In this document: piece by piece, positions 1 to 50,471 of the stretch
How the letters are laid out: the number at the start of each line of letters is the position of its first letter
Numbering within the stretch: the stretch's first letter is position 1
Assembly (NCBI GenBank): GCA_948567375.1
Contig: OX419758.1
Location: 54,265,473 to 54,329,472 of the forward strand
Direction: 5' to 3'
Length of the DNA: 64,000 bases
Origin: Lunularia cruciata
Taxonomy: Eukaryota > Streptophyta > Marchantiopsida > Lunulariales > Lunulariaceae
Made by a program: the position numbers and the translations under genes
Notes under the pieces: model-generated
The model's input: the letters and a program-made list of their open reading frames with translations, nothing else
Told to the model about the DNA's origin: nothing
Database searches by the model: none

Positions 1-392
1 GTATTCTATAGTTGTGAGTGCAGTGAAGTGTTGATGTGAAGCAATTTCAATCAAGGAAGTTGTGCCTTCAATGGAGGGGTGGAACACAATTTTGAGGCAA
101 AGTTGTTTTGCAGTGCCGTTTTTAGGAGAGATTGAATCATCACAATCAAGATTGTTTGGAAAGATTTGATGGAGTTGTGATTAAGTGTGACATTTTTGTG
201 TGACAAGACTGCGCGTCAGTGCTTGTTACTCTCTTTTGGGTGTAGTTGCTACGTGAGAGATTAAAGATGCAACCAAGAAGAACTTATTTGGTTACTTTGC
301 TTCATATTTGATCATTTCTGATCAGTATCTCTACAAGAACAAACTTAACTTACTTGATTACCGCAAAAGTGATATTTTCCAAGTTTGTCACA
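1..392 (+). repeat. 3' end of 5' LTR of alpha element B
   Basis: This matches the last ~390 bp of three other alpha LTRs (ending at 6807, 14516 and 51133), including shared blocks around GGAGGGGTGGAACACAAT and the terminal GTCACA. It ends in CA at 391-392 and the PBS follows after 7 bases. The rest of the LTR, including the promoter and the U3 coding region, lies upstream of the window. Confidence 0.85.
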
Positions 393-399
393 TGATTTT

Positions 400-417
400 T
401 GGCGCTGTTGCCGGGGA
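400..417 (+). other. Primer binding site, tRNA-Asp type
   Basis: TGGCGCTGTTGCCGGGGA differs at one base from the complement of the 3' end of plant tRNA-Asp, the primer of Athila-type elements. It lies 7 bp after the LTR end, the expected place for the minus-strand primer site, and so fixes the LTR boundary. Confidence 0.85.
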
Positions 418-480
418 TACAAATCTCGGAAGTGGAAGAATACAAAGCCAAAATTTAAACTGGTTTTGGAACCAACATGA

Positions 481-1671
481 ATGTCTGCATTGAAAGTTGA
501 GTTTATAAAAAAATTCATTTGCAAAAAGATAGCACAAACCTTAATAGAAGAAGAGTGCTCACATCTCTTACAAACAATTCCTTGGTTGGCTCAAGGGAAT
601 TTTCATGAACACTTTCAAACTATTGACCCTCTTACTTTGTTTCCAGTTGAAGTCAACACCATCACAAAAGAGAATGTGTTGACAAAGATCCCACTTTGAA
701 CTTGACTACTTGGAACCTAGGCTATCAACAAAATGTCAATACCAACCAGTTCCTTGGGTCCATTAGGTTCAACCATACCATAGCCAATTCCACTAAGTCA
801 AAAAATGACTTTGTTACTTATCACTCAACACACTTATCAGAAGTATAAGGGGACAGAACAAGACAAAGATCCAGATGAATTTATCAAAGAATTTGAAGCC
901 ATTTCCTTTGCCAACAAGGAACATGACTCTACGGATTCCCTGCAAATTTTTCCAAGTCTGCTCCAAGAGAAAGCCCTGAGTTGGTATACCCATGGAACTC
1001 AAAAGGGCTTTACACTAGCTGATTGTGCAGACTTGCAAAATGGCTTCTTGGAACGATTCTAGGAAGTTAACTATGATACGAGTGTCCTTGTAGCACTCAA
1101 TGATTTGGACCAAGGGAAGAAGGAAAAGTTTAGAGACTACTCTGAGTGGTTCATGGCTCTCTTGAACTGAGTCCCAAAGCAATCCGATGTGGTGGGTTAC
1201 TGCGATGCCCAAGCCATCACATGGTTCTTTGGCGGACTCTTACCAAAGATTTGTATCTTTGCCAGGGAGAGGAATGTAACTTCCTTGGACAAAGAACTCA
1301 AACATGTCACCCGGTATGAGGTGGCCCTCTCTCACTTGTCCAGCAACCAAAGAAATCGGGAGAAGAAAGGCAAGAAGCCCAAAAGGAGAGCTTCTTGCAA
1401 CACATCCCTTTCTTCAAAGGAATCCTCCACGTCTTTTAGTTCTTCTTTGGAATCCAAAGAAGATTCAAAGCCAAGGAGAATACAAAGAAGAGGAGGAAAG
1501 AAGCCAGTAACACCTCCAGCAAAGAATGCACAAAAGGTGAATCAAAAGTTGGAGATTCTTATTAAAGATTTTATGGATTTCAAGATCCAAAGAAAGCCTT
1601 CATCATTTGGCAGCCAAATGTATGGTGCACTACATGTGGTAAATCCGGCCATGCTAATACTGAGTGTTTGA
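481..1671 (+). pseudogene. gag: Alpha-B gag (capsid region), broken
   Basis: A mostly single-frame reading starting at ATG 481, broken by stops near 697, 1060 and 1168. The 805-1300 stretch has the layout of the plant retrotransposon gag capsid domain: DPDEFIKEFEAISF, then EKALSWYTHGTQKGFTLADC, then a helix ending in FLERF. A Lys/Ser-rich tail (1360-1520) follows. Gag would form the cytoplasmic particle that packages the RNA. The frame shifts before the zinc knuckles. The copy cannot make full-length Gag. Confidence 0.8.
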
Positions 1672-2040
1672 CTTGCACTACATTTTTTGTGCAACAAATT
1701 GATTGGGTTCTAGGTTGGGACCAAAGTGAGGAAGATGAGGTTGTGTACCAGACTCTTGAGATATAACTTCAAGCAAGCATATTGTATCAAGGTCCAAGGT
1801 ATGGACCCAAGGAGTATAACAACAATGCCCCCCCACAAGGACTACCAATGGGTGGCCAAAATAAGCCTCAAAATGTTGCATCGGGTGCTTGTTATAATTG
1901 TGGCTCAATGGGACATTGGTCTCCAAACTGTCCGGAGCCAAGATGGTAAATTGGGTATGTCCCACTATGCAGAAATTATAAGGGATTGGGGCATACTAGA
2001 AACCAGTGCCCACAACGACCAAACCCAAAACTGCCAGTAA
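1623..2040 (+). pseudogene. Alpha-B nucleocapsid zinc knuckles
   Basis: Two clear CX2CX4HX4C knuckles can be read: 1626-1667 (CTTCGKSGHANTEC) and 1890-1931 (CYNCGSMGHWSPNC). A third, imperfect one follows near 1950-2020 (CRNYKGLGHTRNQC, preceded by a one-base frame slip). These bind packaged RNA in Gag nucleocapsids. They lie in different frames from one another and from the capsid part, so several indels separate them. Confidence 0.75.
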
Positions 2041-3102
2041 AGTATGTATAGACCTCAATTGAGCATGTTGTGCTAGGAAAAAGAGGATACTAATGTAAAT
2101 TGTATAACACTTGAGGAGGAGAGGCCTCAAGAAGGGAGTCCGGCTTCAGAAGGTGAATGGCTAGACCTCAAAATTTGAAGGTTGAGACATGCTCGGGTAA
2201 GAAGAAGTGTGGTCTCAAAGAAGCAAGTACTACTTCTTTGTCTTCCCAAAAGGCAAAGAGGTTGCATCCAAAAGCTATTCTTTCTGCCAAGGAGGAAAAG
2301 ATTCTAGCAAAAGCCAAAGCCAATGCTTTGCAGAAGGAAATCAATGAGCAGTACAGAGAACTTGGGAGATGAATTTGGAGGATAAGAAGACGGGGCCTCC
2401 TAAAGAAATCAATGAAGCAGTACAAAGAACTTGGGAGATGAGTTTGGAGGATAAGAAGATGGGACCTCTTGTGTTTCTGGCAGATATCAGATCCAAAGTA
2501 AAGGATCTAATCCAAGCCGAGGTAGGCAAACCCGAAGAACTTTAGGTTAAGACCGCTAGTACTCCAGTCACCATCTTAAAGCACCCCGAAGTCCGATTTG
2601 AACAAGGAGAGACTTCAAACCTGAAGACAAAGGTGAAGAAGATGAAGTTGGGAGGAGTCCCTCAATATGATATTGTGGCCGATTTGGCATCTACAAGTGC
2701 TAATGTCACATTTAAGCAATTGTAGAAGGACAACAAGCTATATAAGAAGCAGTTGAGTTTAGCCCTCAAGAAAGTAAGGGCAATGACCAAGAAAGACTTG
2801 CCCACAATTTATAGTACTGAACAAGAAGATTTGAGATCTCCCAAAGTGGATGCAGAGATCGCAGGCTGCATGATCACATCCATACCCATTGATTCAGGGT
2901 TGGGTGTGAATTTCATGATAGAAGACACTACACATTGATTGGGGTATATGACGTTTGAACCAACACCCCAAATTTTGAAATTTATGGATCAAACCAGGAG
3001 ACGGCCTTTGGGCATGCTGTCAAATATTACTATAATCATTGGAAGGGTGCCCTTCAAGTTAAACTACATTATGTTGCTACCAATAACCAAAACTGGTTAC
3101 GC
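2041..3102 (+). pseudogene. Alpha-B gag-pol linker and N-terminal part of protease
   Basis: A Lys-rich linker (2157-2372), then a reading with DLASTSANVTFKQL near 2677, then the aspartic protease with catalytic IDSGLGVNFM near 2890 and the following strands (MGYMTFEPTPQ, VPFKLNYIMLLP) up to 3102. There is a stop at 2936. Protease would cut Gag-Pol in the particle. The domain stops abruptly at the boundary of solo LTR A, and its C-terminal part resumes at 6808. Bases 2380-2460 hold a short imperfect duplication around GAGATGAATTTGGAGGATAA. Confidence 0.75.
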
Positions 3103-3667
3103 TATGGTACCCATTTTTTTGTTTTTCTATGTTTATTAGTGTTTAAGAGAAGAAGTAAGCATTGGAAGTCAAATTGCGGACAAAGAATCGATGGAAGTAA
3201 CTTTGGAAGACATCCGACAAAGATGATATCGGATCCGATGATGGAGTTACTCGGAAAAGGAGTACTACGAAAAAAGTCCAAAGAGCACCGTCTTTGGGTC
3301 GGAAGGCACAGAAGATACAAAGACCATTTAACAACCTTGGTACATGGCAGGAAAGTACATTTCAAGAAATGGCGGAGGCAAAAGAAGCATGTCTTGACAG
3401 TGATCGGGATTTGCATGCAGAAGAGAGAAAGTTGAAGTTCAAATTGACCGAAGAATGATTGCAATTCAGGGTAATATAAGATTGCAACAGCGCAAGGACA
3501 AGTTGAATGTGCCGAGTAAATTTCCAATCCCTTTGAGTAGTCTTCCTGCAGTAATGCATGTCCGGAAGCCCATAGAGAGTGAAATTTTCCAAAATCCCAA
3601 GGGAGTTAGAGTGTCTTGTCCAGGAGAGGGTATCATCTTCTAGCATCGTAGAACGAGAGAACAGATT

Positions 3668-6010
3668 ATGGCAAAGAAGGTGGCCAATGCGCTCAAGGTG
3701 CGAGGTTTCACAATCCAAAGATTAGATGTAGTAGCTAGAATCAAAGTCTTGACTAGACTTTGTATTACTTTCTTAGCATGGAATTGGAATTTCAGTTTCC
3801 CGGGAGTGATGGCAGAAATCACTGCCAGTAATTGTGAGGAGGGTCCCGAGGTGGAAGGGAAGAGAGGCAATCTGGCTTAATGGACTGAGTTGGATTGGAG
3901 GTTAGTATTGGGGAGAGAAGCAAGAGAGCCGACGGGGATCACCTTCTATCGGAAGTGTGATGCTGCAAAGGAGACGGCGGAGATTCGCAACTTGTTTTTC
4001 GCTCCAAGAACGACAAATGGATACAAGGTGGAGTCCTATCGGGATCTGATTTGAAGAAGCATACTGGGGGCAATGATGGCCATGTTCAAGCCAGAACGAA
4101 CCACCTATGTGAACATGCAGCAAGCCATTTTCTTCCACCAAATCTTTGCAGGAGTTCTAGTGAATTGGGCAAAGTGGTTCCATCACCGAACGAGGCAGAT
4201 GGTGATTAATTGGCGAATGGGCTCTCCACTGCATTATTTTGCACCATTTGCAGCACATTTCTACTTCGGGTTGAACTTGCTGACCAAAGAGGAGAGTCAT
4301 CATATGATGTCTCACGTTCATCTCGACTTACGATGAGAAGCAGACGAGGAAGAGCGCCAGTATATGCTGCATCTGTGAGCCAATGATGAGTATTTCTCAA
4401 AGACCAGACAGTGGAAGGTCAAAGAAATCACCAGTCCAAAGATGAAGAAATGCAGCAAACCCGAAGAAGCAAAGTCGCCTCCCACTCAAAGAAAGACTCG
4501 ATGGCTGATTATGAAGAATACGAAGATGGTGAGAGATGCATTATCGGGATCAGAGTTTGAGGAAGAAACCGAGTCGCAAGAGGAGGAATCTGAAGAAGAG
4601 GAGATCACCTTAAAAAGTGAGGAGTCCGGAAGCGATAGCGAGAGAGAGCCAAAAGTTTAGCAATTGGTGGGGGTCAGCAAAGTTTGTCAGGCGATGGTGG
4701 TGAACAAGCCGAGACCAGAAGAGAAGGAGGAGTATCCAGCGGGGCCGAGTTCAAGAGGCAAAGACAAAGAAAGTATTGAAACGATGTCTCTGAAGATACA
4801 AAGATCGTGACTTTGGATGAAGGAGCCGATGACAGAGGTGAAGACTCAAGACAAAGATGATGATGAAGAGGAAGAGAACTTTGGTGGGATATTGTATTTG
4901 ACAAAGGTGGTCACACCATTGCTGGAGCTACTGAAGGATCATTGGAAGGTAATTCCCTAAGATCGTAAGAAGGAGATGAATGAGTTGCAGGTGGTGATGC
5001 ATTTGCTGAGTGAAGTGAAGGGGTTGTAGGAGCAACAAGTCTGAAGAAGTAAAGAAGTGGAAGAACTTTGGCAAGAGGAAGGCTTGACAAAGAAGACTCT
5101 TACAATGTTACAAGAAAGCTGCGATGTAAAAGAGAAAGAACTGCAGAGGCGAGCCGGAGAATTAACGGAATAGGCAATGTGGCTGAGCAAGATGAAGGAG
5201 GAAGTGAGTGATGTGCGCATCAAGAATGTCCATTTGAAGGCGATGACCATCGTAATGGAGCAGGAGTTGGATAGTTTGAAGAAGAGTGCAGCGGCAAAGG
5301 ATCAAGCATGGCAGAGAGAGTTAGCAGCCAGGCAAGAAGAAGAGGAACGATTACAAGAACTTGTCAGGAGCACGGAAAGGCAGAGCACGTAGTATGCATA
5401 AGAGAAGAAGATGCTCATTGCGGAGTACAAAGATGAGTTGAAGATGTATCGTGAGGAGTTGAAGGTAGAACGTTCTTGAGGATATACATCAAAATCAGTG
5501 GGAGAAGTTGTGGGGAAGTTGAGAGCACTTCTCAGCACGGAGGCTGAAGGGAGATTGGAAGAAGCCCGCCTACATGAGTTGAAGTTACTTGTGTAGGAAA
5601 CTCGAAAGAGAAAAGCCAAGGATGTGGATATGAACACCTTGTTGATCCGATTGAGAGAACGGGTAGATCGGAAGATGTTAGAAGTAGAGAATAATGTTAG
5701 TCTTTGATTAGATTTAGTTAATTCAGAGTTAGAGAAAATTTAGAATAGTGTGACAATGGAGCAAAAACCCGATGTTGCAGAAGTAGGAATTCAAGTGTCA
5801 TCGGACTTGATAATTGACACGTTAGAGAAGAGTGGGTCAAGAGATAGAGAGTTAGATAAGTCACTCCTTAGCGCAATTGTAGTTCCTAGTGTAGAAGTCG
5901 TAGAAATAGTGAAGGAATTGGTAGAATTAGCTATACCCAAAGAAGGAGAAGTAATAAGAAGATCATTGGGTTTGGAAGCCGATGATGAGTTAGACATCGG
6001 ATCGGGATAA
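3668..6010 (+). pseudogene. U3-encoded protein of alpha LTR A, broken
   Basis: About 780 codons if unbroken, with many stops and shifts. The chosen start is ATG 3668 (MAKKV), aligned with MAPKV at 10567 in copy B. In order: a globular part (LTRLCITFLAWNWNFSFP; WTELDWRLVLGRE near 3885; FKPERTTYV and HFYFGLNLL at 4073-4290); an acidic Ser/Glu region (4540-4900); a long coiled coil rich in Glu, Lys and Leu (4930-5690; for example LIRLRERVDRK near 5645); and a tail ending DIGSG at 6007. No catalytic motif was recognised. The function is unknown. The core resembles in outline the 'putative plant transposon protein' domains attached to plant Gypsy elements, which is only a hypothesis. Confidence 0.7.
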
Positions 6011-6129
6011 GTATCAATTTTGAGATAGGAAGAGGCAGATATGAAGAGTAGATTATCAATTGGGATCTACAGGTAGGAAAAGATGTTAGGAAGCAGTGCA
6101 TAGGTAGGAAGAACTGCTATTTGCTTCAG

Positions 6130-6138
6130 TATTTAAGG
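6130..6138 (+). promoter_or_regulatory. Probable TATA box of alpha LTR A
   Basis: TATTTAAGG is followed by GGAGCATTTGCAG. The corresponding site occurs in B (13842) and C (50462), each 671-677 bp before the LTR end and about 3.03 kb after the LTR start in A and C. This conserved spacing marks the U3/R border and places the coding region upstream, in U3. Confidence 0.6.
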
Positions 6139-6807
6139 GGAGCATTTGCAGTCTTATGTTATTCAGTATTCATATTTCTGAAGATAGATAAAGCGAAGTG
6201 TTGTTCTCAGTGCTCGTCGCTTAAGCTTAATTTCGATTGTCAATTTTGTGTTTGTAGTTGTGAGTGTGTGGACAATTCTGAAGAGCAAGTCAGTGTGTTT
6301 GTAGATGTTGGAATCTACAGCCTTGATCTTCATTTTATGTGTTTGATCTTGAGTGAAGTGCATCGGAGCAATGCCTTGACAGATCTGAGAGGAATTGTAG
6401 TGTTGGTAGTATTTTGCATTTGTGAGTGCAACACGAAGTTGATGTGAAGCAATTTTGATTGAGAAAGTTGTGCCTTCAGTGGAGGGGTGGAACACAATTC
6501 TGAGGCAAAATCATTCTTTGCAGTGAAGTGCCGTCTTTGGAAGAATCTGAATCATCACAATCAAGAGTTGTTTGGACAAAATTTGCTATGATGTGATTAT
6601 GTGTGTGTATTCGTGACAAGTTGTCAAGATTGTGAGTTATTACTCTCTTCTAGGTGTAGTTTCTACCTGAGAGATTAAAGAAGAAACCAAGAAGAATTGC
6701 AATTGTGACTTTTGACTTTGTATTAGGACATTTCTGAATAGTATCTCTGCGGGAACGAACTTTACTTACCTGATTACCACAAAAGTGATATTTGCCGGGT
6801 TGTCACA

Positions 6808-7237
6808 CCCTCTCTTGATCCAAAGACCCTAGTTGTACAGTGCTTAGGTTATTGTGGATTAGCACCAGCAAAAGCTAAGGTTCAAGGACATCTCATCCAA
6901 AGATCAGAAGTTGGTGACGGTGAGTTGTCCAAAGGTTCCCCACCTCGGGGAAACAACATCATCAAAAGATGAAGATGAATCCGAAGATTCATCATCTTCA
7001 TCTTCAAGAGACTCCAAAGATGAAGTCCAAGTCAACGACTTGGAATGCTACAAGGTAGAGGTCAAAAACAAAGACCCTCATGACATTACCTCCGGTGAAA
7101 CAACTTGGAGGAAGGAGGTTTGATTGCAGTTTGACTAGGATTAAGCTAAGTAAGCCATGTTAAAGGAGTCATCAACCTCGATGACTGTCAAGATGTTGTC
7201 TTGACTGAAGGAAAAATCTTAAAATTTATGAAGATAG
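6808..7237 (+). pseudogene. Alpha-B C-terminal protease and PR-RT linker
   Basis: This resumes the protease of 2753-3102 on the other side of LTR A. In the same sense it encodes the conserved end of plant Gypsy proteases (L-L-x-x-R-P-W-like, then VDW-like and QQK residues), with three stops. A Ser/Asp-rich linker follows (6960-7030, KDEDESEDSSSSSSRDSKD). It is not preceded by any PBS, which argues against a separate element starting at 6808. Confidence 0.75.
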
Positions 7238-8250
7238 TGACTTTGGAGGAGTTGGCAGGATACACTGCCTTGTTTATAGAATTCAAGAATGTATTCATGT
7301 AGTCTATTGATCAAATGCCGAGTATTCCACAAGAATTTGGAGAACATCAGATTGATCTGGTTGAAGGTGCAGTTCAAGTTTGGCAAAGACAATACCGCCT
7401 GATCTCAATGTACTTGCTCTTGGTCAAAGATGAAATCAACAAGTACCTAGGGGCCGGAATAATCTTTTCCTATCTTAAGTAGTGAGTGGGTCTTACCCAT
7501 TGTCATTTTACCAAAGAAGAAAACTAGGAAAATTTGAGTGTGCCAAGATTTTTGCAAGCTGAATGCAATCACACAAAAGGATCATGATCTCTTTCCATTT
7601 ACCGATACCATTTTTGGACCAAGTAGCTAGTCATCCCTGCTGCAATTTTCTTGATGGATTTTCAAGGTATAATCAAGTATCCATTTGAGAAGAAGACAAG
7701 GATAAAACTACATTCACCAATGATTAGGGCACTTTTGCTTACAATCAAATGCCCTTTGGGTTGTGTAATGCCCCCGCTACTTTCCAACTGATGATGAATG
7801 CAATCTTCAAGGATTTTCTGCACAAATTTGTGGAAGTCTTCATTGATGACTTTTGTGTGTTTAGGCAAAGGGATGTACTACCTTTGCCAAACTTTTGGAA
7901 GGTGTCATTTTGTTGGTTTGTCATAACACCTGAAGAAATGCTTCTTTGCAATGAAGGAGGGCATTCTTCTGGGGCATCAAGTGTCAAGCCGAGGTATTGA
8001 AGTCAATGTTGAGAAGGTAAAAGTTATCTCAACTTTGGAATCCCCAAAAAACATTGTGGAGCTAAAAGCCTTCTTAGGACCTGTCAGATACTACAGATGC
8101 TTTGTTTCAAACTATGTGGTGCTTGCGGCACCCCTTACAAAGCTTCTGAAGAAGTTCAAAGACTACTTGTGGGAAGTAGAAAAAGAGGAAGCTTTCCAAG
8201 TATTGAAGAAGAAACTGGTTGAAGCGCCAATTATGAGGGCTTTGAATTAG
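7238..8250 (+). pseudogene. Alpha-B reverse transcriptase, broken
   Basis: Degraded N-terminal fingers (HQIDLVEGAVQVWQRQYRL near 7350), then MPFGLCNAPATFQ at 7749, the polymerase box VFIDDF at 7838-7855 (both Asp kept), LLGHQVSSRGIEV near 7965, and the connection LKAFLGPVRYYRCFV near 8065. FIDDF is the Athila/Tat form of the YxDD box. Reading frames change near 7480, 7640, 7870 and 7950. RT would copy the RNA in cytoplasmic particles. This copy is inactive. Confidence 0.85.
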
Positions 8251-8800
8251 GATGCCCGTTTTCATGTGTATGTGGACACTTTGTCCATGGCAATTGGAGT
8301 CATCTTAAGTCAAAAGGATGAGAAGAAGAAGGACTACCCAATTTATTATGCCAGCCAACAATTATCAATTTCAGAAAAGAACTGTTTGATGACTGAAAGA
8401 GAAGCACTCAGAATGGTTTATGCCTACAAGAAGTTTCACCACTACTTGTTGGGATACGAGTTTGTCTTCTATGTTGACCATTATGCATTGCAACATTTGG
8501 TCAAGAAGGCAAACTTGTCCGGGTGGATTGCAAGATAGATCTTGTTGTTACAAGAGTTCACATAGACTACACAAGTAAGGAAGGGAGCTTTGCATTTGAA
8601 TGTGGACTTCCTATCCAAGTTAGAAACTCAAGACAAAGACTTGGAAGTTGATGATCAGTTTCTTGATGAAGAGCTATATCATTTAATGGCTATGCAAAGT
8701 ACAAGTTATGTGGCCAAGTATCACTATCTGCATACTTGTCATTGTCCTGAGGGGATGGACCCGGAGCAAAGGGTAGTCTTCCTCAAGAAGATGTGATTAT
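8251..8800 (+). pseudogene. Alpha-B RNase H and RH-INT linker
   Basis: An RT-type RNase H in nearly continuous frame: VYVDTLSMAIGVILSQ (first catalytic Asp), YPIYYASQQLS, MTEREALRMVYAYKKFHHYL (catalytic Glu), FYVDHYALQHLV (third acidic position). Stops lie at 8248 and 8536. A linker with LNVDFLSKLET and acidic residues (8595-8680) follows, as in Athila/Tat pol. It would remove the RNA strand during reverse transcription. Confidence 0.85.
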
Positions 8801-9998
8801 ACCAACTAAAACACAACATTTTATTTAAGCTAGGTGAAGATGAAGTACTTTGGAGATACTTGAAGGCATACTCGGAAGAGTCATTGAGTGCTTACACTCT
8901 GAAGCATTGAGAGGACACTATGCCCTAAAGAATAGTGTGAAGAAAATCCTTTCAGCAAGGTATTAGTGGCCTACAATGTATAAAGACACACCCATATTCA
9001 AAGTTGTGATGCTTGTCAAAGAACAGGAAAACCGACGGCTATTTCTCAATGGCCTTTGAGACCAATTTTGCCATTGGCTCCATTTGAGAAATGGGGTATT
9101 GATTTTGTGGGTCCAATTCAACCAATGACCCAAGTCACAAGGAAGAGATACATCTTGGTATGCACTGATTATGCTTCCAAGATGGTAGAAGCAAAAGCAA
9201 CGGAGAGATGATGTGGAGACAATTGCAAAATTTTTCTTCCGAAACATCAGTTCACATTACGGGTGTCCTCTAGAATTGGTCAGTGATTGGGGAACTCATT
9301 TTTTGAACTCCATGGTGGAAGTACTAACCAAGTACTTCCAGATTAAACATTGGAAGGCAACTCCCTATAATCCAAAAGCAAATGGACTAATGGAAAAAGC
9401 CAATGGATTGTTGTGTAAAATTTTGAACACGATGATAGTGAAGTATGCCTATGATTGGGGCAAAAAGTTACCTGCAGCTTTGTGGGCATACCAAACAACT
9501 AAAAAGACAACAAAAAAACAAACTCCATATTTCCTAACATATGGATTACATCCCATACTCCTAATTGAATTTGAAGAACCATCATATCGGATTCTTTGCA
9601 AAGAATGATTGTTGGAGGAAGAAAGCCAAGATCTTTGGATCCATAGACTGATGTGGTTAGAAGAGAAAAGGGATGATGCAATGCAAGAACAAAGGAAGTG
9701 CAAGAACAAAGGAAGGGCAAGCATGATAAAAGAATCAAGCTTGTGGCTGTTCAGGAGGGTGATTTGGTGTTGTTATATGACAATTGCCAAATATTTTTGC
9801 TAGGCAAACTCCATTTAAGGTGGATGGGGCCATACCTTGCCATGCACATATATGCCAATAGCTCTATTCAACTTGCAGACCTGGAAGGCAATCCTTTTGC
9901 CACTCGAGTAAACGGGTGGAGAGTTAGAAAATATTGGACCACGGACCTAACTTTGTATAAAGAACCGGTTGTCAATGTTTGTAGGGATACTCACATTT
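8801..9998 (+). pseudogene. Alpha-B integrase, broken
   Basis: N-terminal zinc domain (LRGHYALKN near 8910, CDACQRTG near 9008), the first catalytic Asp region around 9160 (TDYASKMVEAKA), second Asp in LVSDWGTHFLN (9275-9310), catalytic Glu in NGLMEKANGLL (9380-9412), then a C-terminal part with LRWMGPYLAMHIYANSSI (9820-9870), ending HI-stop at 9998. No chromodomain follows, consistent with Athila/Tat. Stops and shifts occur at about 9010, 9210, 9606 and 9700. It would insert the cDNA into chromosomes. Confidence 0.85.
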
Positions 9999-10011
9999 GA
10001 GGGAGGAGGTA
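9999..10011 (+). other. Polypurine tract of alpha-B
   Basis: GAGGGAGGAGGTA directly abuts the LTR start TGTGGTACCC. This is the plus-strand primer site. It proves that the LTR begins here, immediately after integrase, so everything from 10012 on is LTR. Confidence 0.85.
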
Positions 10012-10566
10012 TGTGGTACCCACATTTTTCAGTTTTGGATGGTTTTATAAAGTTTTCAAGAAGAAGTATGTTAGTAAAGCCAAAGGAGGGCTAAATGGGA
10101 AGGAAGATAAGAAGAAGCATGTGTTTGGGCCAAACCCAAAGTAGACCTCGAGTCAAGTCCGAAGGACTTGAGATAGATGAGAGAGAAAGATGAAGAAGGG
10201 GACTTTGTATCGGATAGCGTGGCCTGATCCAAAGAACTTATAAAAAACTTCTTTGGGGTTTGCCAATCAAGAAAGTACACGGGAAGAAAGTGACAAACTC
10301 GAGATCAAGAAGTTCTTGATTGTGACAAGACACAAACTCACAAAATCGGTGACTGGAGCACAAAAGTACCTAAAGAATGACCAAGCAACACAAGACTATA
10401 AAATCAAGAGTTCTGCAAGGAAGCAATGCAATGTCTAGATGCTACCTTGTCCCTATTCAGAGTCAACCCAGGGAAATGCAAATTGCAAATTGCAAATTCA
10501 CAAGAAGAAGAGTGGGTTAGGATCTCGGGAACAATCATCCACAAGAAGAGAGTGAGGAAACACACA

Positions 10567-13500
10567 ATGGCCCCAAAAGTGAGTAAGCAAAGTGCAAGGA
10601 GAGGATTTGCAGTGCATAGATTATATGTAGTGGTAAGCATCGATGTCTTAGTGAAGCTTCGTATCACCTTCCCGGCCTGGAACTAGAATTTTAGTTTTCC
10701 AAGTTTCATGGTAGAAATCACAGCAAGTGATTGCAAGGATGGGCCAAAGCACAAGGGGAAGGGAGAAAATCTGGCTTGATGGACTGAATTGGATTGGAGA
10801 ATAGTCTTGGGTAGAGAAGTAGGAGAGATAGGAGGTACCACCTTCTATTGGAAGTGTGATGCCTCAATAGAGACTGCCAAGGTGAGAAATTCTTTCAATC
10901 AACCTTGCACCAAGAATGGGTATAAGGTGGATAGCTATAGAGACCTTGAGAAGAGAGGGATTGTAAATGCAATGATGGCAATGTTCAAGCCGGAGCGAAC
11001 CACCTATGTCACGATGCAACAAGTGGTGTTCTTTCACCAAATGTATGCAGGAGAAGTAGTAGACTGGGCAAAATGTCTACATGAGCACATGGGGCAGATG
11101 ATTTTGAGTTGGAGGATGGACATGCCACCACATTACTTTGTGCCCTTCACAACTCATTTCTATTTTGGGCTTAATTTATTGATTTTAGAGGAGAGGAACT
11201 GAATGCAATCACACTTTTATCCAGATATGCGCAAGGAGGCGGATGCTAATGAACAATACTATATGGAGAGAGTGTGAGAAGGGGACGAGTACTACAAGAA
11301 CAGTGGGAAGGAGAGAATTGTAACAATTAACATCCCGAGGGCAAGGAAGAGAACTAAGCTTGAAAGTTGCCTGGTGGCAATACAACCACCAAAGATGCAA
11401 AAGATTAACCTGAAGGTAGTGGTGGTGAAAGCAAAGGAATTGACTCTAGAAGAAGAAGGGGAGTCCAAAGGAGGAATTGAGTCAAAGGGAGAAGCTTTGG
11501 GAGGAGAAGAAGAGTTCACACTACAAAGTGAAGAATCAAGTAGTGGCAATGAAGGCAAGGTGGAAATTCAGCAAACCCAAAGATGGAGTGTGTATACAAG
11601 GAAGCTTAGTCCATAGGTCTCCACTATCAAGCGAGGATGTGAGAAGAAGGAGGAAGAAGGAGTCTTGGCATGTCCAAGAATTGCTCGGGGAAAAGAAGTG
11701 TGCATGCAGTCAAGGTGGGGCCTAGTAAAGTCACCACAGAAGAGGAAGAGAGCTCGGATGAGGAAACCTTGAAGGTACAAAGATCATGACTTTGGGGTAA
11801 GGTGCCAGTAGGAGAGTTGCCTGTAGAGGAAGATGAAGTCTGGGCCGATGACAAAAAGTGCAACAGAGTAGAGTATCTATCAAAGGTTGTGTGTCTGTTG
11901 TTGTTGTTTCTATAGTAGAAGAAAGAAGAGATAGTGTAATACCAAGAGCTAGCCATATGCTCTAGATTTGAAAGTTGGTTTGGTATCATCTAGAATGATG
12001 TTACACATGATGGTCAAAATAGATCAGATAGAAGTATCACCAAAAGAGTACTTTTACTAATAAGGCAAAAACCAAAATAGACTTGAAAACCTTAGAACCA
12101 ATAGCTAGACATATGATTTAAAGGTGAGAATTGGTTTGGTAACATCTAGAAGGATGTTACACATGACGGACTAAATAGATCAGAAAGAGATATCACCAAA
12201 AGGGGACTTCTACTAATAGAGTAGGAACCGAAATATGCCTAAAATCTTTGAAGGCAATTTTGGATGCCTAAACAAATGAATTAGGCCTCAAAAATGTGCA
12301 GATTCATTCCCTAATGGAAGAATGGCTAGCCTTCCCTCCCCCTGCTTTGTCTCGTTGAGAGCTTTCCAATGGTACCTTAACCACATGATTTTGAGATTCC
12401 TACAGGAAGATTCCTTAAAATATTCCCTCTGGTCAAAGCTTGTTTGACCAACCAGATAGGACTTAGACCGACATGTCACACATCCAAGTAAGTAATCCAA
12501 GGGTAGAGCTTGATGACATGTCACCTATCTGTGTGCCTAATCCTATGGTGGAGCTTCCTTGGAGTAGATCCTCTTTGTCTATTTAATAAAGAGAAGGTGG
12601 TCCTTTGAGGCATCAAATTTTTGAGTGTGAACTCTGTGTTTTCTCTCTTCTCTTGTCCTCAGAGTATTACAGATGGCAAGTGCTAACCCCGACTTGCAAG
12701 ATGAGTTAGCAGTAGTAGAGAAGTGGAGTGCAAAAACCTCATTATTGAGAAGCAAGCTAACGAGAGTAGAGATCGGAGCCAAAAAACTTTGGGTGGAGGA
12801 GATTCTTTGGAGTAAGCATCTCGAAGCAACAAGGGAGGGTTTGGTGAAGTGTCACAAAGAAGCTAAGGAGAAGATGGCATTGGTAGAGGTGCTAAAGGGG
12901 GAACTTGCTGATGCACGAGTAGAATTAATACATTCAAAGGCAAGTGTAGCAATAATGGAGCAAGAGTTGTAGAGTCTAAAGGAGAAGGCCGTTAAGAAAG
13001 ATCAAGCCTGGCAGTGGGAGTTAGCAAAACATGGTAGTGAAGAAGATTGATTGCATGGATTGTTGAGGGTGGCGGAAGAACAAGTTGTAGTAAATTAACA
13101 AGAGAAGGAGACAATGAAGGCTAAGTTTGAGGCCAAATTATAGATGCATCAAAATGAATTGGAGGAAGAAATAAGGAAGGAGAAGCTTGATATAGTGGGG
13201 GAAGCCAATGATGTAGCAGGAGTGGTAAACAAGATAAAGGTGATGCTCAGCACAGAGGTCAAATAGAAATTGGAAGAAGCCAGGTTGCATGAGTTGAAGT
13301 TGTTGGTGTAGAAGACACAGAAGAGGAACACAAAGGACACAAAGCTAAATAATTTGTTAATTCATGTGCGAGAATGAGTAGATAGGAAAATGTTAGAAGA
13401 AGGAGACAATGTGTGTCTTAGATTAGATCTTGTTAAGACGGAGTTGGATAAACTTCATAGTGAAGTGTACGTAGTTAGAAGACCTGAAGTAAGTGAGGTA

Positions 13501-13725
13501 GGAGTTCAAGTGTGTTTGGACCCACTACTTGAAATATTAGAGAATGATGGGTCAGAGGCTAAAGAGTTAGGAAGATTACCCATGACCTCAATTGTAGGTT
13601 GTAGTGAAGAAATTGTAGAAGTAGAAGAATTTGGGGTAGAATTGAGTAGAACTAAAGAGGGAGAAATTCTCAAAAGAACATCGGGATTGGAAGCCAAAGT
13701 CAAAGTTGACATCGGATCGGATTAA
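10567..13725 (+). pseudogene. U3-encoded protein of alpha-B 3' LTR, broken and interrupted
   Basis: Same protein as in A. Start MAPKV at 10567. The 10789-11202 stretch is open for 137 codons and holds WTELDWRIVLGRE, FKPERTTYV, FFHQMYAG and HFYFGLNLL. An acidic segment follows (11430-11600), then the beta LTR insertion (11935-12671). After that the coiled coil continues (12673-13380; LQDELAVVEKWSAK, HVRERVDRK-like end) and the tail ends VDIGSD at 13721. Amino-acid blocks shared with A and C in one phase, despite much base change, suggest past coding constraint. Function unknown. Confidence 0.7.
11935..12671 (+). mobile_element. Beta solo LTR inside the 3' LTR of B
   Basis: TGTAATACCAAGAGC...GAGTATTACA, flanked by GATAG (11930-11934) and GATGG (12672-12676), a 5-bp target duplication with one mismatch. 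No beta PBS or internal sequence follows. Its U3 has two tandem copies of the ~172-bp beta unit, starting at 11935 and near 12100. Confidence 0.85.
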
Positions 13726-13841
13726 AAACAGATTGAGATATGAAGAGGCAAATATGAAGAGGTCCATTGTCATTTTGAATCTATAGGTAGGAAAAGTTGT
13801 TGTAGAATGGTATAGTTGTTAGCAACTATCGATTGCTCTAC

Positions 13842-13850
13842 TATTTAAAG
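13842..13850 (+). promoter_or_regulatory. Probable TATA box of alpha-B 3' LTR
   Basis: TATTTAAAGG, 674 bp before the LTR end, at the position of the sites in A and C. A conserved U5-side sequence including AATAAATAAAGC follows. Confidence 0.55.
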
Positions 13851-14516
13851 GAGGAATTTGCAGTATGATGTTGTTCAATGCTCATAATTTTGAGAATAAA
13901 TAAAGCAAAGTTCTGTGAAGCAATGCTCGTCGCTTGAGCTTAATTCCGAGTATCAACTTTATGTTTGTGTTTGTGAGTGTTTGGAGAATTTTGAAGTGCA
14001 TGTGTATGTTTGTTGGATGTTGGATTCTGCAACCTTAATCTTCATTCTATGTGTGTGATACTAAGTGAAGTGCACTTGGAGCAATACCTTGATAGATCTG
14101 AGAGGAATTGTAGTGTTGGTAGTATTCTAAAATTGTGAGTGTAGCATAGTGTTGATATGAAGTAATATTGATCAAGGAATTTGTGCCTTCAGTGGAGGGG
14201 TGGAACACAATTTTGAGGCCAAGTCATTTTGCAATGAAGTGCTATTTTTGGGAGAGACTGATTCATCACAATCAAGATTGTTTGGAAAGATTTTATGGAG
14301 TTGTGATTAAGTGTGACGTATTTGTGAGACAAGACTATGAACCTGTGCTTGTTACTCTCTTTTGGGTGTAGTTGCTACATGAGAGATTAAAGACGCAACC
14401 AAGAAGAACCAATTTGGTTACTTTGCTTTGTATTTCATCATTCTGACTAGCATCTCTATAAGAACAAACTTTACTTACTTGATTACCTCAAAAGTGATAT
14501 TTTCCGAGTTGTCACA

Positions 14517-15356
14517 ATAATGATGTGCAATGTTTAAAGGGTAACATTCTACAAGTAAGGATCTACCAAGTGCAATAGAGAATTTTTTTTGATTGGGAAA
14601 ATGTGAAAATTTTGAAGTCACAAATCTCCTGTGAGACAAATCCTCTTAGCCTCATGTCAGCTGGATGGAGCAACAAAACTATAGTGACTATTTTTAGTGG
14701 AGCAAAATCATTGGCAATTTTTTTCTCCAATTTTGACATGGGAAGTCTTCAAGAGGATGGTCATTAGGCAATTCCAAGTGATGAATCTTGCACTTATTGC
14801 ATGAGATTGATTGGCAGAATTAAGGCAGATTAGTTCAATGAGAATTTACATTTCCCAATTCTAGAATGCCACAATGTTGATTCCATACATACAAGAAAGT
14901 GAAGCTTTGGATCAGTTTATGAGAGGTTTGAAATCACACACCAAATTGGAAGTAACCATATGCAAATCCAAGCATCTTGAAGAAGCCATGCAAATGGTTT
15001 AGCGCTTTGATTCCTTGGTTACCATGAATTTTTCTTGACCTAGCCTCCATAGAACATGCAAATGCCCCAAGCACGGGGACAAGCCAACACTATGGAGATT
15101 TATGTTATCCAATGGAGACCACTTGGCATAGAGGACCACAAGTAGTTGTGTCAAAATAGTGGTTGCTTCTATTGTCACCAAATTGGACATCATATTGCTT
15201 AATGTTCACTTTGGAATGTATAACCTTGACAAGTTGCCCAAATGGAGCTTGAGGAGCATGATGATATGGGGAACAAAGATTTCCAATAGGAGATATCAAG
15301 CCACTTATTTGGAACCTAATTAGTTCCAATGGGATTGAAGGGTCAACCTATGCAAG
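14517..15356 (+). pseudogene. gag: Delta G3 gag and zinc knuckle, broken
   Basis: This matches G1 gag at 26180-27000: the leader to the capsid near 14560, a helix around 14930 (DQFMRGLKSHTKLEVT), then a CX2CX4H knuckle at 15164-15205 (CFYCHQIGHH, with a stop before the last Cys). Many stops. The G1-like sequence continues to the junction with LTR I at 15356. Confidence 0.65.
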
Positions 15357-16559
15357 TGTGACAACCCAATGTTGACATACTAATAGTATAATTTGTAAGA
15401 ATAGGTTGTTCCCTCAAGGAGACTGTTTGGAAATGGTTAGGATTGAAAGAAATGTGTCACTTTGTCACAATTTGTCTATTTTTATGTCTTTATCCTCTTA
15501 AGTAGAACAATTCTTAAAAGAGGAGGTATTCTATATTGTACCACCCCATGGTGACACAATATAGAAAAAGTCAACCAATCAAATCATATTCACAAAAGAT
15601 ATTCTATTAAGTTGGCTCCTATAGGTGATGGTCTAGTTTGTCTTGAAGGTCCTTTCCGTTGCAATTACCTATATCATATATACCACAATGTAAATGATAA
15701 TGTTCTACCCTTCCCAAAAGGCATTCCTCATTGTTATACTATAGGTTTTCATTAAAGATAGCACTTCACAATGCTCATAGCCCTTATGGCTAGTCAATGC
15801 ATAGCCTTGATTCTTCAAAATAGTGAGGGATCCAACATCTTAGTTAAGCTTGATTGCCATCTTGGACCTCATCATTTGCATTTTTATTTTGAATTCCTCT
15901 CCATTACTCCACTCAATGATCACAAAACATACACAATATTGACATTGATGCGCTAAGGATCATGGAGGTCCTCATTGCACCTTCTCTAATACAAAATCCA
16001 ATTCATATGCACAAAGGCAATTGCAAATGAGCCTACACAAATATGGACAATGAAATGACAAGGCTAGAAATTTCATAGGCTTGAACTTGTATCATGTCAA
16101 GTGATTCTTCTTACACCTTCTACTACAAAAAGATGGAGTGCATCTATAGTTGTGCAGTGTCACAATCCCCAAGTTAGCTCTCATCAAGACTAACCCTAAT
16201 GTACCTATTTTATCATACTAAATTTATGTTGTGATGGTGCTACCTCTAGAGTGTGCCTACAACATACTCTACCAATCACAAAACTCTAGCTAGACATCAA
16301 AAGAATGGTCCCAATGACATGACACTAGCAAAATTGTCTTACTCTACATGATTGTTGTCATCCCTTAGTTTATATGCACATTGTTGCACAAGAGTGGTGC
16401 CACCTCTCCAACATCTTGTCCTGGATGACATGCCATCATTGTGATGCTTGACTTTGATGGTCTCCTACCATAATGATGTTTGACTCTGATGACATGATGC
16501 TCTTGATGGTCATGACATGACAACTGCATCTTGAGGGTGACTTATTGTACATTTATACA

Positions 16560-19300
16560 CTTGTAATTACATGGTTGAAACTACTTCCTTGACCTTCTTG
16601 GCCTCCTTGATTCATCTCCTCCTTTGCATCTTTAGATCAGTTCATTCGTATGCTCATTATACTCCTCAAGTTCTTGGCTGACCTTGATCAAGACACTCTT
16701 AAATTTTTTCTTGCTTCCATAGCCTCTTATCCAATTTAGTCAATTGCTTGGTTGAATACTTCTTTGCCTCCAAAGCATGTATTTCCAACTTCAAATTCCA
16801 TAGTTTCACGTGATGACCCTAAGTCAAAGCTGCCACTTCTACTTGAGCCTTAAAGCAATTCATGATATCCTCCAGTACTAAGATTACTCATGTTTGCTCT
16901 TCATTCATTGCATCACGTATGGACTGCAATTCCATATCCATCTGTTGCTTGACCTACATGAAAATTATCTACTCATGTTTTCCATGATTACTTACAATTG
17001 TGGTCAATTCCTCAATGTGCATTTGGGCCTTTTCAACATCTATGTTGAGTGCCTACTTTTCCTTGAGAGATGCTACCTCCCCATCCCTAGCACTCAACTA
17101 CTCCTTGTGCTTCTCTTTCATCTCCTCCATATGACACTTGGACCTCCCCTTAATGGTTAGTAAGTTGGAGTCCAATTGGGAGACTTGTTATTGTATCTTG
17201 ATATCTCTTCCTTCATTAGGGCCATTTTTTCTTCCTTCTTGTGCAACTTCTCTTCCTAGGCCACCTTGTAATCCACAAATGGCTTCTCTTTTTAATATAA
17301 CCTACCTCATTGCTACAAGCTTAGCCTTGACTTGGCACAACTCCACTTAGTACCATTCCATCATGGCAATGTTATCCTTCTTCCACACCTTCTAGTTCAT
17401 TGACAAGGCATTGTGCTCTCCTCTTGCCCTTCATAGCTCCACATCCTTGCCTACAAGAGTAGTCTCCAATTCCCAAACTATTTCTCTACTCCTAGCTTCT
17501 CCCAAATAGCCCTATGAATTGATAGTGTAGAAACTTTATTGAGTGTTTTTTATCTATCATGGTTGGGTTAATCTCTTAGTAAGCAAGCAATAGGTCTTCC
17601 ATGGATTTTAGCACCAGCTCCAACATATGAATAATCTAGGTTGACAAGGGTGGGCAATTCATAGGGTAATTAAGTTCTAGATCCTCATAGGCTGGTGGGG
17701 CCAAATTGCATCTTGCCTCTTCTTATTGCAATGTTGAGGTCGCTTCCCTTTCCTTAGTAGTTGCCATGATCTTAGTAGCAACAAATGAAGCCAAAAGCAT
17801 TTCATCCAAGTCCAAGGATAATCATTTTCTTGGACCCTTACCCTTTTATTCACTTTAGAATCTCCTCCCATGCAATTATGATGGCATCATTTGGGCATTC
17901 TCAAGCACAAGTTCTTAGGTAGAGTCGCCACTTGTTGTTCTATTGAAAGTGAGGCAATCCAAATCCACATTGTCTTCAATCTTGGTGTGGAGGAGAGGTC
18001 TTATTTACCTACAACTAGGATATCAGGGTATTCTCCTCCTTGTCCACCATGCCTTCTCCTCTTCTTTGGTAGCGGATTGGTCTAGTACTCCCAACTCCAC
18101 CATGGCCATAAAGGTGGATTGTACCTCCATGCCCTACTCCACATTGCCTCCTTTGGTTTTGGAAGACAATTCTTTTAGAGAGAAAGAAGTTTCCCACTCA
18201 AGAGGTGCTACCTCCACAACTGGTGACAATTCCTTCTCCACACTAACTTGGTGTTCTTCTACAGGGGTAATTCCTTGTGTGTTATGGTCATTCCCACCTT
18301 ACTTTCCAATCCTATTTGCCCTTGGATTGGAGTTCTCTTCATCCAAAGATTCCACAACCTAGGGATTAGGCTGGTGTCTCTTTGCTATCTTGACCAATTG
18401 CTATGGTTCCCTTCTATTTGCTTGTGCTTGCTCTTGCAACCCTATTGATTGGCACTCTTCACTCTTCATCCAATCTTTTGATACTTGAGAAATGCATCTT
18501 TGTATTCCTTGGTCTCTTTTGCATGTTGGAGCTAAACTAAATAATATCCCCTAGGGTAGTAATGTGTTGGGAAGAATGATTGTTCTTCCTTCTTCAAAAG
18601 CCTCATCTAGATATAAAAGTGCAAGACAAATAGAGAGAGAAAAGTGCTACCTCAAGTGCAATGATAAAACACCTTTGTCCAATCCATGGGTCTTCCTTCA
18701 TGTAACAATTGGAAGAAGGTGGAATACCTATTGTTGGTGTAAGTTGTCTTTGTTGATTTAAACAGCTTCGTGAGCAAGGTCATTGTGGTATGCCTGGAAG
18801 GTTATTGTACCCATTCACTTTACTGCAATTCCTTGTCTTGGCATACTTAAACAAGGCTTCAAATTTCCTTGTCATCTCCTCCATTGGCCACTCTTGGTTG
18901 AGGTACATTGTTCCAAGAGTAGAGTTGGACCCAAGAACCTACTACTATTGCTCCTACATCCAAGCAAACATATTGCCGTGCAAGTCGGTGAAGTTTGGAT
19001 TCTTCTTCTCTTTAATCTCCAACACCACTAGGAGATAAGTAAAGTCCTAAATCAATAGCAATAATTATAAATGCTAAGAATTTAGAAACTTCATGTAGTA
19101 GTCATGCACTCATTTCTCCACTCTAAGAGAATGGAAGGCAACTACAACTATAGCCCTCTTCTTTTGTGGAGACATTGTAGTGCCCAACGCTTCAAGTCTC
19201 AATTCATACAATTGCCTTTGCACTCTATTGCTCCTTGTCATTTTTTCACATAGTCTCTTGTGTTAAACATCAAGACTAAAGACTATTTCCAACAAGGTCA
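16560..19300 (-). pseudogene. U3-encoded protein of diverged alpha LTR I
   Basis: The minus-strand reading is heavily broken. Near 18780-18560 it shows FKSTKTTY, then FFQLLHEGRPMDWTKVFYH, then HFYI and LLKKEE. These match in order and spacing the A/B core (FKPERTTYV, FFHQ..AG..., WAKWFHH, HFYFGLNLLTKEE). Downstream (18500-17650) is acidic and Glu-rich sequence; 17500-16560 is coiled-coil-like (EKLHKKEEKMALMKEE, SARDGEVASLKEK). So the domain order is the same as in A-C. Function unknown. Confidence 0.6.
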
Positions 19301-19568
19301 CCTTATACATGTCAATGAATTGCCTCGTGAACATTGGAGCTAGTGTAAATTCAATTGATTGAAACTTACCTCCTCCCAAGATGAGATGTTTCAACTTTCA
19401 AATGGCCCACTTTTTATTTTAGCAATCATCATTGGTGAAACATCATTGTTCCCATATGTGTGAAGTGGCATAAGGAACTATGGCAACCAAAACTGTTTCT
19501 TCATCCTACATGGCAGCAATTGCTCATGGGAAGTCAAACCACTAAAGATTGATTGCCAAATATTGACA

Positions 19569-19986
19569 TGTGAGCTGGCTTGCTCTAACTCAAGATGAAC
19601 ATCTCATGCTTATAAATATCACACACCATGGACTACAAAGGCAAGAAACCCCAACTCCATCACACTTTTCCAAGGCTAGAACTCCAAGACTCAAAACATT
19701 GCTCATTAGAGAACTCAATGAGAGAGAGATAGTTGCAAATGAAAGGATGATAAGGCTTGTGGGCCAAATAGCTCTCAACTCCCTCCTCAAAGTCAAATAA
19801 TTAAGAATAATACCAAGTCAATATAGTAAAAGATAAAAATAATAGTGCTCACTGTTTTCCCTTCCTCTAGCTGATCATGACTAATATAGAAGCTTATCTA
19901 AACTCTATATAGATAATATTTCTCCACTACTTGCAATACCAAATGTAATATCCCTATAGAGTATACATGTACCAATGTGTGTTATA
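19569..19986 (-). mobile_element. Short gamma solo LTR inside LTR I
   Basis: On the plus strand it reads TGTGAGCTGGCTTG...TGTGTGTTATA, the reverse of a gamma LTR, with about 270 bp missing internally compared with the 690-bp copies. It is flanked by perfect GACA at 19565-19568 and 19987-19990, a 4-bp target duplication. Confidence 0.8.
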
Positions 19987-20252
19987 GACATGTCAATCTG
20001 TACTCATGATCATGATAGTGTTTGTGGTATCATGGTCAGGATTGTCATTGTTATTGTGGTCTTAGGACAACCTCATTCCAACAATATCTTCTCCTAGTGT
20101 TGATTGCACATTTAATGTATTTTTTTGGGTGATTGGGGTATAAGCCCTAAGTCCTATTTTCTAACTTTATTCTAATCTAGTTACTTAACTAATTGCAAGG
20201 AAAAAACAAGAAAATCTATATAAGGAGATGTAAAGTGGGCTACTAGAACAAG

Positions 20253-26960: not shown

Positions 26961-26966
26961 GGGAAC

Positions 26967-50337: not shown

Positions 50338-50461
50338 GATAGGAATCAACCGATATGAAGAAGTGAATTGTAATTTCAGATCTGGAGATTTAGAAGTGAA
50401 GGTTTGCAATAGTAAAGCAATTCAAATTTGGAGATTTGTAGAGGTAGGAAAGAGTTTTGCT

Positions 50462-50471
50462 TACTTAAAGG
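50462..50471 (+). promoter_or_regulatory. Probable TATA box of alpha LTR C (decayed)
   Basis: TACTTAAAGG sits at the place of TATTTAAGG in A. Distances to both LTR ends equal those in A within a few bases. Confidence 0.5.

Follow-up and report, generated by a model that had tools for sequence, protein, structure and literature searches.

PMC4667437 treats LTRs as regulatory and ordinarily non-coding, and places the sag gene of MMTV mostly in the U3 of the LTR, with several promoters, one of which is inside the U3 of the 3' LTR. In plants, PMC7264820 describes aORFs downstream of pol that are env-like in Athila and Bagy2 and antisense in Grande (gene23) and Retand (TRP28); gene23 is driven by a promoter of its own and its product is nuclear, and an SMC domain is reported for the aORF of PvRetro13. 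CERV, encoded by the C. elegans Ty3/gypsy element Cer1, is described in PMC10309623 as a novel nuclear accessory protein needed for export of genomic RNA. Very long LTRs occur in the plant Ty3/gypsy elements Diaspora, Ogre and BAGY-1, and the excerpt of PMC1142308 available reports no other lengthy ORFs in Diaspora and describes no coding role for the LTR. No plant LTR-embedded gene of the kind reported below was found in the literature searched, which was mostly without subscription papers. The wording 'LTRs encode' occurs in PMC11117352 in a loose sense that is not relevant here.

The family analysed here, named after element E1 of Lunularia cruciata, is an old, high-copy, plant-type Ty3/gypsy retrotransposon whose LTR contains a reading frame of about 780 codons. 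MMTV sag is the closest analogue, being likewise coding sequence inside U3 and present in both LTRs; however, MMTV is an animal retrovirus with env, whereas the E1-family protein has a basic cluster and a coiled-coil-like make-up, and no relation to superantigen sequence was revealed by Pfam searches with the U3 pieces or by a PDB sequence search with piece P0002. Plant aORFs occur once per element, in the stretch separating pol from the 3' LTR, antisense in the case of Grande gene23 and Retand TRP28, whereas the E1-family frame is in sense orientation and inside the LTR. CERV is made from a spliced mRNA, and the LTRs of Cer1 are only 491-492 bp long (PMC10309623); long LTRs are common to Diaspora, Ogre, BAGY-1 and the E1 family. 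A high-copy family with a large selected gene in its LTR breaks the rule of non-coding LTRs outside animal retroviruses.

Element E1 and the extent of its LTR

The window comprises 64,000 nucleotides (assembly GCA_948567375.1, contig OX419758.1, positions 54,265,473 to 54,329,472), and features within it lie on the forward (+) strand unless stated otherwise. E1 is an LTR retrotransposon of Ty3/gypsy order, with paired LTRs and a target-site duplication (TSD), a primer binding site and a polypurine tract, and reverse transcriptase, RNase H and integrase in that order. Its 5' LTR was placed just upstream of the window (L009:3665-7392) by end-to-end alignment with the 3' LTR, and the 3' end (R-U5) of this LTR occupies 1..392, with 86.9% identity to 14122-14516. 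It is followed by the primer binding site TGATTTTTGGCGCTGTTGCCGGGGA (393..417), presumably of the tRNA-Asp type, which holds the same post-LTR place in L013 and L025. A broken gag and protease region (481..3102) was delineated from ORF pieces, with similar DNA after the LTR in L013 and L025; gag and protease were named by eye, and no Pfam match to gag was obtained in 481..3102. The reverse transcriptase, RNase H and integrase pieces (7728..9900) were identified by Pfam (RVT_1 1.5e-8, RT_RNaseH 2.4e-23, then a weak rve match of 0.022, below the Pfam cut-off). As the earlier note had described, the polypurine tract GAGGGAGGAGGTA (9999..10011), which is also found in L027, directly precedes the LTR start after integrase, and the 3' LTR (LTR B, 10012..14516) begins with TGTGGTACCC. 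The two LTRs are 85.7-87.2% identical end to end, run from TGTGGTACCC to GTTGTCACA (TG...CA) and are flanked on both sides by ATAAT (14517..14521 and L009:3660-3664), and their divergence is even (K2P 0.166 in the leader, 0.145 in the frame and 0.124 in R-U5). An unrelated repeat of 735 bp (11933..12667, no strand assigned) interrupts LTR B but not the 5' LTR, and has related copies at 35966-36508, 43001-43704, 53210-53934 and 55222-55783.

Two further LTRs in the window had been taken for solo LTRs. This was borne out for LTR C (47434..51133, 3700 bp), which has a TTGTA duplication on both sides and an empty site inside the window (39243-39249 versus 47434/51133), but not for LTR A (3103..6807), which is nested in E1 and whose flanks, TACGC and CCCTC, form no clean duplication. 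The constant internal distances reported earlier were reproduced: the downstream TATA lies 3027-3028 bp from the LTR start in A and C, and 672-678 bp separate it from the LTR end in A, B and C. The E1 LTR pair with its ATAAT duplication, together with the empty site and TTGTA duplication of LTR C, establishes that the LTR of the family is about 3.7-3.8 kb long and that the reading frame lies inside it. Elsewhere in the genome, solo LTRs with perfect TSDs measured 3.77-3.78 kb (L011, L012, L014 and L015), and perfect 5-bp TSDs were present at the predicted ends in nine of 20 R-U5-seeded loci, five of them on LTRs of 3.13-3.78 kb; E1 alone gave a complete LTR pair. If LTRs were only about 0.7 kb long and the frame were single-copy sequence separating integrase from the LTR, its position would be the one customary for additional frames in plant elements (PMC7264820), and the earlier note had set this arrangement against its own reading. 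However, the 5' LTR of E1 has the whole region together with a matching TSD, and the solo LTRs with TSDs include it, which refutes the short LTR for E1, C, L011, L012, L014 and L015; a single-copy, internal frame was seen in none of the loci read, and we give this arrangement virtually no credence. Because no sequence separates the LTR start from the polypurine tract downstream of integrase, both LTRs receive the gene during reverse transcription, as had been proposed, and the frame region is contained in both the 5' and the 3' LTR of E1. Each insertion thus adds two copies of the gene, one of which persists wherever a single LTR remains. A 1.9-kb insertion at 40598-42500 was considered as another LTR and rejected, its ends being inverted repeats without a match to the E1 family.

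Coding capacity of U3

The frame spans 3668..6010 in LTR A (a single frame of 780 codons with 16 stops), 10567..13725 in LTR B and 48020..50313 in LTR C, where it is also broken. The long reading that the earlier note placed in the 3' LTR at 10567-13725 does lie inside that LTR, but it is not open, being interrupted by stops, by a frame break and by the insertion at 11933-12667, with a longest stop-free stretch of 140 aa. The frame region of the E1 5' LTR is broken as well (30 stops in about 807 codons, best of three frames). All copies of the frame in the window are dead, and no young copy of the family was found.

Against the 16 stops in the 780 codons of LTR A, 2000 mononucleotide shuffles averaged 52.6 and never fell below 31, and third codon positions are the most divergent among A, B and C (p = 9.5e-14, 7.5e-8 and 3.5e-7). 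In eight LTR copies, strong codon periodicity extends over LTR positions of about 480-2760 of 3781; the R-U5 window 3241-3480 gave a ratio of 1.68, in another phase and with low divergence, and periodicity was absent from the left-over frame tail in five frame-less 1.9-kb LTRs (ratio 1.14 at 841-1080). The earlier note had framed its dN/dS test for young copies; between diverged copies dN/dS is far below 1, at 0.15-0.32 in frame versus 0.76-1.37 out of frame, with dS between A, B and C near saturation; for the closest copy pairs it is 0.43-0.74, as expected for dead copies. A chance frame is ruled out by the stop count, third-position divergence, dN/dS and codon periodicity, which show that the frame of about 780 codons, wholly inside U3, is a gene that purifying selection maintained during the active period of the family.

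Genome-wide distribution and frame-less derivatives

Scored matches across the genome numbered 116 and 133, and all 40 scored matches at the integrase-LTR junction run on into the LTR start. Among elements sampled by this junction the frame is inside the LTR in 15 of 18 and missing in three, and among the R-U5-seeded loci it is present in 13 of 20 and absent in seven. The LTRs without the frame measure 1.9 and 1.0 kb and have lost it, and one locus (L023) is a mobile mini-element lacking the frame. Mobile short-LTR derivatives lacking the frame, and the tie between the upstream TATA and the frame described below, are new in this analysis.

A diverged relative of the frame was detected by tblastn on the reverse strand at 18553..18801, within a probable solo LTR of a distantly related element (LTR G, 15361..20248, - strand), with E values of 3.2e-7 to 2.9e-4 for nine of 11 U3 queries and 23-30% identity to the N-terminal domain of the U3 protein. 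LTR G ends near GGGTTGTCACA, shows no clear target-site duplication and is inserted in a repeat that is uninterrupted in other copies (26199-27460 and 56673-57822). This relative, the match counts above, and the selection and periodicity over the frame all argue against a recent capture of a host gene or a chance-open, non-functional LTR sequence, as does the fact that dN/dS near 1 was not observed between old lineages. Pfam gave no family at cut-off for any U3 piece and all window copies are broken, as such an origin would allow, yet we regard it as very improbable indeed.

Promoter signals and a proposed mode of expression

The upstream TATA box, about 160-180 bp before the frame, reads TATAAAA in LTR B (10397..10403), where it is the candidate promoter of the U3 frame, and in LTR C (47821..47827), and TATAAGA at the same place in LTR A (3475..3481). 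The motif TATAWA at LTR position 372-436 was found in 15 of 16 frame-bearing LTRs versus none of seven frame-less ones, an association partly accounted for by the lack of the whole homologous upstream part of U3 in the latter. The longest stretch of the leader that is invariant across 14 LTRs is TATAA (a length reached in 28 of 5000 column shuffles); in row subsets it is not unique, CCAAAG being longer with four rows and 136-225 of 5000 shuffles reaching the length of TATAA, and in close copies shared descent preserves the leader beyond the TATA as well. The downstream site is TATTTAAAGG in LTR B (13842..13851), the candidate genomic-RNA promoter, followed by the poly(A)-signal-like GAATAAATAAAG (13894..13905), and TATA-like TACTTAAAGG in LTR C (50462..50471). 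A downstream TATA region with a poly(A)-like signal is present in all 23 LTRs examined, including mobile ones without the upstream TATA, and is exactly TATTTAA in 16 of 23.

Conservation of the upstream TATA points to a dedicated promoter rather than to the expression from the 3' end of the genomic RNA that the earlier note inferred. We consider it fairly probable that the gene in U3 belongs to a two-promoter LTR unit with a nuclear, trans-acting product. The upstream TATAAAA would make a short mRNA of the frame that uses this LTR's own poly(A) site. The genomic RNA would start at the TATTTAA-type site further downstream, which precedes the poly(A)-like signal by about 50 bp, and may skip the nearby poly(A) site of the 5' LTR because that site is so close to the RNA start. 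The product would most likely act in trans in the nucleus, in genomic-RNA transcription, export or anti-silencing. The polypurine tract sets the LTR start, and the frame was probably already present downstream of integrase before a new tract, formed ahead of it, brought it into the LTR.

It is rather unlikely that the frame has no promoter of its own and is translated, as nef- or env-type frames are, at the 3' end of a genomic RNA that is either spliced or full-length, with the upstream TATA as a relic or in another role. The genomic RNA does include the frame, after integrase and ahead of the poly(A) site, and spliced accessory mRNAs are known from CERV of Cer1 (PMC10309623) and Bagy2 (PMC7264820), but the TATA is kept at 372-436 in nearly all frame-bearing LTRs within a poorly conserved leader. 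Still less probable is a start of the genomic RNA at the upstream TATA, which would place the frame in a very long R as the first cistron before gag. TATAAAA precedes the frame and is better kept than the exact downstream motif; against this, the downstream TATA and poly(A)-like signal occur in every LTR examined, their presence in mobile LTRs without the upstream TATA indicates that a downstream start seems enough for transposition, and a poly(A) signal kilobases past the start should truncate the RNA within the 5' LTR.

Interior deletion by LTR-LTR recombination is normally a means by which a host disarms elements. Under the two-promoter reading, we tentatively suggest, at a little below even likelihood, that the LTR is a portable, complete gene with its own promoter, a selected 780-codon frame and a poly(A) site, the genomic-RNA promoter following the frame, and that interior deletion leaves a gene able to serve in trans. 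If so, the accessory gene would survive interior deletion, since solo LTRs carry it too, and could serve autonomous elements and frame-less mini-elements in trans. Whether accessory genes can move into and out of the LTR as the polypurine tract shifts, whether element proteins can still be made by solo LTRs and whether frame-less derivatives depend on protein supplied in trans are questions that have become testable.

The predicted U3 protein

An env-like protein was rejected on position, the frame being in both LTRs and not unique between pol and the 3' LTR. The strongest hydrophobic window has a KD19 value of 1.59-1.66, at the usual cut-off of 1.6 for a membrane segment, and no clear membrane segment was apparent. 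A resemblance of the product to PF20167 (Transposase_32) was considered; hmmscan of the U3 pieces returned neither this family nor PF04195 (TRP28), and both profiles gave 0 matches in the genome, with the controls silent too. A PDB sequence search with U3 piece P0002 gave no match, and an AlphaFold2 model of the stop-free B fragment, computed with five other window pieces, had a pLDDT of 45. The predicted product comprises a conserved N-terminal domain, a basic NLS-like cluster, an acidic linker and a long charged stretch that is coiled-coil-like by composition, and the core of the basic cluster, K-[KR]-[ST], is present in 11 of 13 aligned copies.

Element E1 and its LTRs

The window contains piled-up degraded repeats, among which lies E1, an element filed as a Ty3/gypsy retrotransposon, whose R-U5 end (the 3' end of its LTR), PBS, gag, protease, RT, RNase H, integrase and PPT occupy positions 1-10011, gag and protease having been assigned by eye. 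The three LTR copies claimed in the earlier note are LTR A (3103-6807), nested within E1, LTR B (10012-14516) and LTR C (47434-51133), which has TTGTA at both flanks and entered a repeat also present without C at 37512-40597. The genome searched comprised 565.8 Mb in 74 contigs, in which the 5' LTR of E1 was located at the locus adjoining the window on the left (L009:3665-7392). B was confirmed as the 3' LTR of E1, since the alignment with this 5' LTR spans B from its first base to its last (85.7% and 87.2%) and ATAAT flanks both ends of the element. The one part of B missing from the 5' LTR is an inserted 735-bp repeat. The pair has diverged evenly over its length, with K2P values of 0.166 for the leader (LTR start to frame), 0.145 for the U3 frame (the coding region of ~780 codons inside U3) and 0.124 for R-U5, as expected if the whole LTR including the frame was duplicated together. 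The repeat inserted in B (11933-12667) contains an internal ~156-bp duplication, and four relatives in both orientations were listed in the window.

Coding character of the U3 frame

A single frame of 780 codons in LTR A contains 16 stops, against a mean of 52.6 and a minimum of 31 in 2000 mononucleotide shuffles. When A, B and C were compared, the third codon position was the most diverged and in-frame dN/dS was 0.28 (A-B), 0.21 (A-C) and 0.15 and 0.32 (two parts of B-C), ratios that are rough because dS is near saturation; shifted frames gave 0.76-1.37 and non-frame parts of the LTRs 0.40-1.07. A set of 31 B-type copies, found with a B-type protein (L030-L059, B itself included, and the E1 5' LTR), yielded a median dN/dS of 0.245 over 465 pairs. 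The 15 closest pairs gave 0.43-0.74, among them the LTR pair of E1 at 0.695, an empirical gauge of what drift yields under this method, change after insertion being drift only. Low dN/dS overall, combined with high values in the E1 pair and the closest pairs, thus places selection on the frame before insertion and not after it. Many of the stops that recur among the 31 copies stand where a CGA, CAG or TGG codon has become TGA or TAG, a change that deamination of methylated cytosines would produce.

Across eight LTRs of non-B type, codon periodicity is strong from LTR position ~480 to ~2760 of 3781, and its ratios (1.6-3.6) all fall in the same phase. The ratio was 1.16-1.21 in the leader and 1.05-1.68 in R-U5 windows, where the phase differs from that of the frame; the value of 1.68 comes from window 3241-3480, in which divergence is low, and is unexplained.

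Distribution in the genome

Twenty loci were picked by R-U5 similarity, and the frame region lies inside the LTR at 13 of them and is absent from seven. Duplications of 5 bp at the predicted ends were perfect at nine loci, had one mismatch at three and two or three mismatches at two; four loci carry a PBS-like sequence 3' of the LTR, as 5' LTRs do, and at one a 3' LTR follows integrase. One frame-bearing locus (L026), whose start was not recognised, was excluded from later LTR counts. At another, the oriented minus locus L022 (1109-1714), a frame-bearing LTR begins right at the end of another family LTR, suggesting insertion into, or recombination at, that end.

Frame queries returned at least 116 and at least 133 scored matches as best candidates. 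At least one stop was present in all 116 matches listed from the former, and five of the 133 listed from the latter, including the query's own source, had no stop across 295 residues; the closest relative of the query copy among these 133 showed 85% identity. With an integrase-LTR junction query, all 40 scored matches continue into the LTR. In a sample of 18 junctions (ranks 2-20, omitting rank 7, where the frame was already known), 151 bases each were taken at the expected place; the frame was present on the correct strand in 15 (13 with the expected residues, two with a later part), and nothing of it was found within these bases in three.

Candidate promoters

The leader is poorly conserved, its longest invariant run across 14 LTRs being TATAA, a length reached in 28 of 5000 column shuffles. 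With four to six rows the same length was reached in 136-225 of 5000 shuffles, and with four rows CCAAAG was longer than TATAA. TATAWA occurs at LTR position 372-436 in 15 of 16 frame-bearing LTRs (A has TATAAGA) and in none of seven frame-less family LTRs, which are entirely without the homologous upstream part of U3; two of the seven have it at other positions. In 27 of the 31 B-type copies it also lies 142-217 bp ahead of the frame's first residue, but there it may be conserved by descent. All 23 LTRs share the position of a second TATA-like site, ~670-680 bp from the LTR end and followed ~50 bp later by a poly(A)-like signal; the site is exactly TATTTAA in 16 (12 of 16 frame-bearing, four of seven frame-less), and the others depart from it by one or two changes. 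On the simplest reading of these motifs, the upstream candidate promoter would serve the frame and the downstream one the genomic RNA.

The U3 protein and a distant homologue

The product of the frame consists of a conserved N-terminal part, a basic cluster, an acidic linker and an extended charged region, poor in proline, whose composition alone suggests a coiled coil. In 11 of 13 aligned copies the basic cluster contains K-[KR]-[ST] as its core, mostly next to other basic residues and following no strict consensus. Hydrophobicity over 19 residues peaks at a borderline 1.59-1.66, and no known family in Pfam matched the protein at cut-off. The N-terminal domain has a distant homologue, with stops inside, at 18553-18801 (minus strand), matched by nine of 11 queries at E-values from 3.2e-7 to 2.9e-4. 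This homologue lies within a 4.9-kb insertion (15361-20248, minus strand) that has the same 3' end as the family LTRs and a target with uninterrupted relatives, and that is probably a solo LTR of a distant family.

Frame-less derivatives

Seven loci were recognised as non-autonomous derivatives from which the frame and its upstream TATA have been lost, whereas the downstream TATA region and R-U5 remain. Five LTRs of ~1.9 kb (L010, L017, L021, L024, L028) have a differing first ~830-917 bp, with one window at periodicity 1.54 (241-480), joined to the long LTR at its position ~2733-2787; a left-over frame tail, which tblastn detected in L017, L021 and L028, shows no periodicity (1.14 at 841-1080). 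The LTRs of L023 and L029 are ~1.0 kb long, and L023 holds a mini-element (L023:4479-6045) of LTR, PBS, ~0.5 kb, PPT and the beginning of a second LTR. Since these derivatives moved without the frame in cis, its product is suggested to act in trans or to be dispensable for them.

Comparison with known systems

Among retroviral genes, HIV nef overlaps U3. MMTV sag, described as lying in U3 and having a promoter inside the LTR (PMC4667437), is the closest functional analogue and is alike in layout, with no sign of kinship to the U3 frame. Additional frames of plant elements sit between pol and the 3' LTR according to a plant review (PMC7264820), as is also cited for Retand (PMC11963269), whereas the U3 frame lies inside the LTR. 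In the literature searched, no gene was found within a plant LTR, and the arrangement was filed as a new form with a sag-like layout.

Other repeats in the window

A 1.9-kb insertion at 40598-42500, with an uninterrupted relative at 46060-46130, has inverted ends of the ATGTCATSGG type, internal ~160-bp tandem repeats and a strongly purine-rich minus strand, and resembles a DNA transposon or MITE. At 44914-45875, two 481-bp units in tandem share 95.6% identity and are closer than most other repeat pairs of the window.
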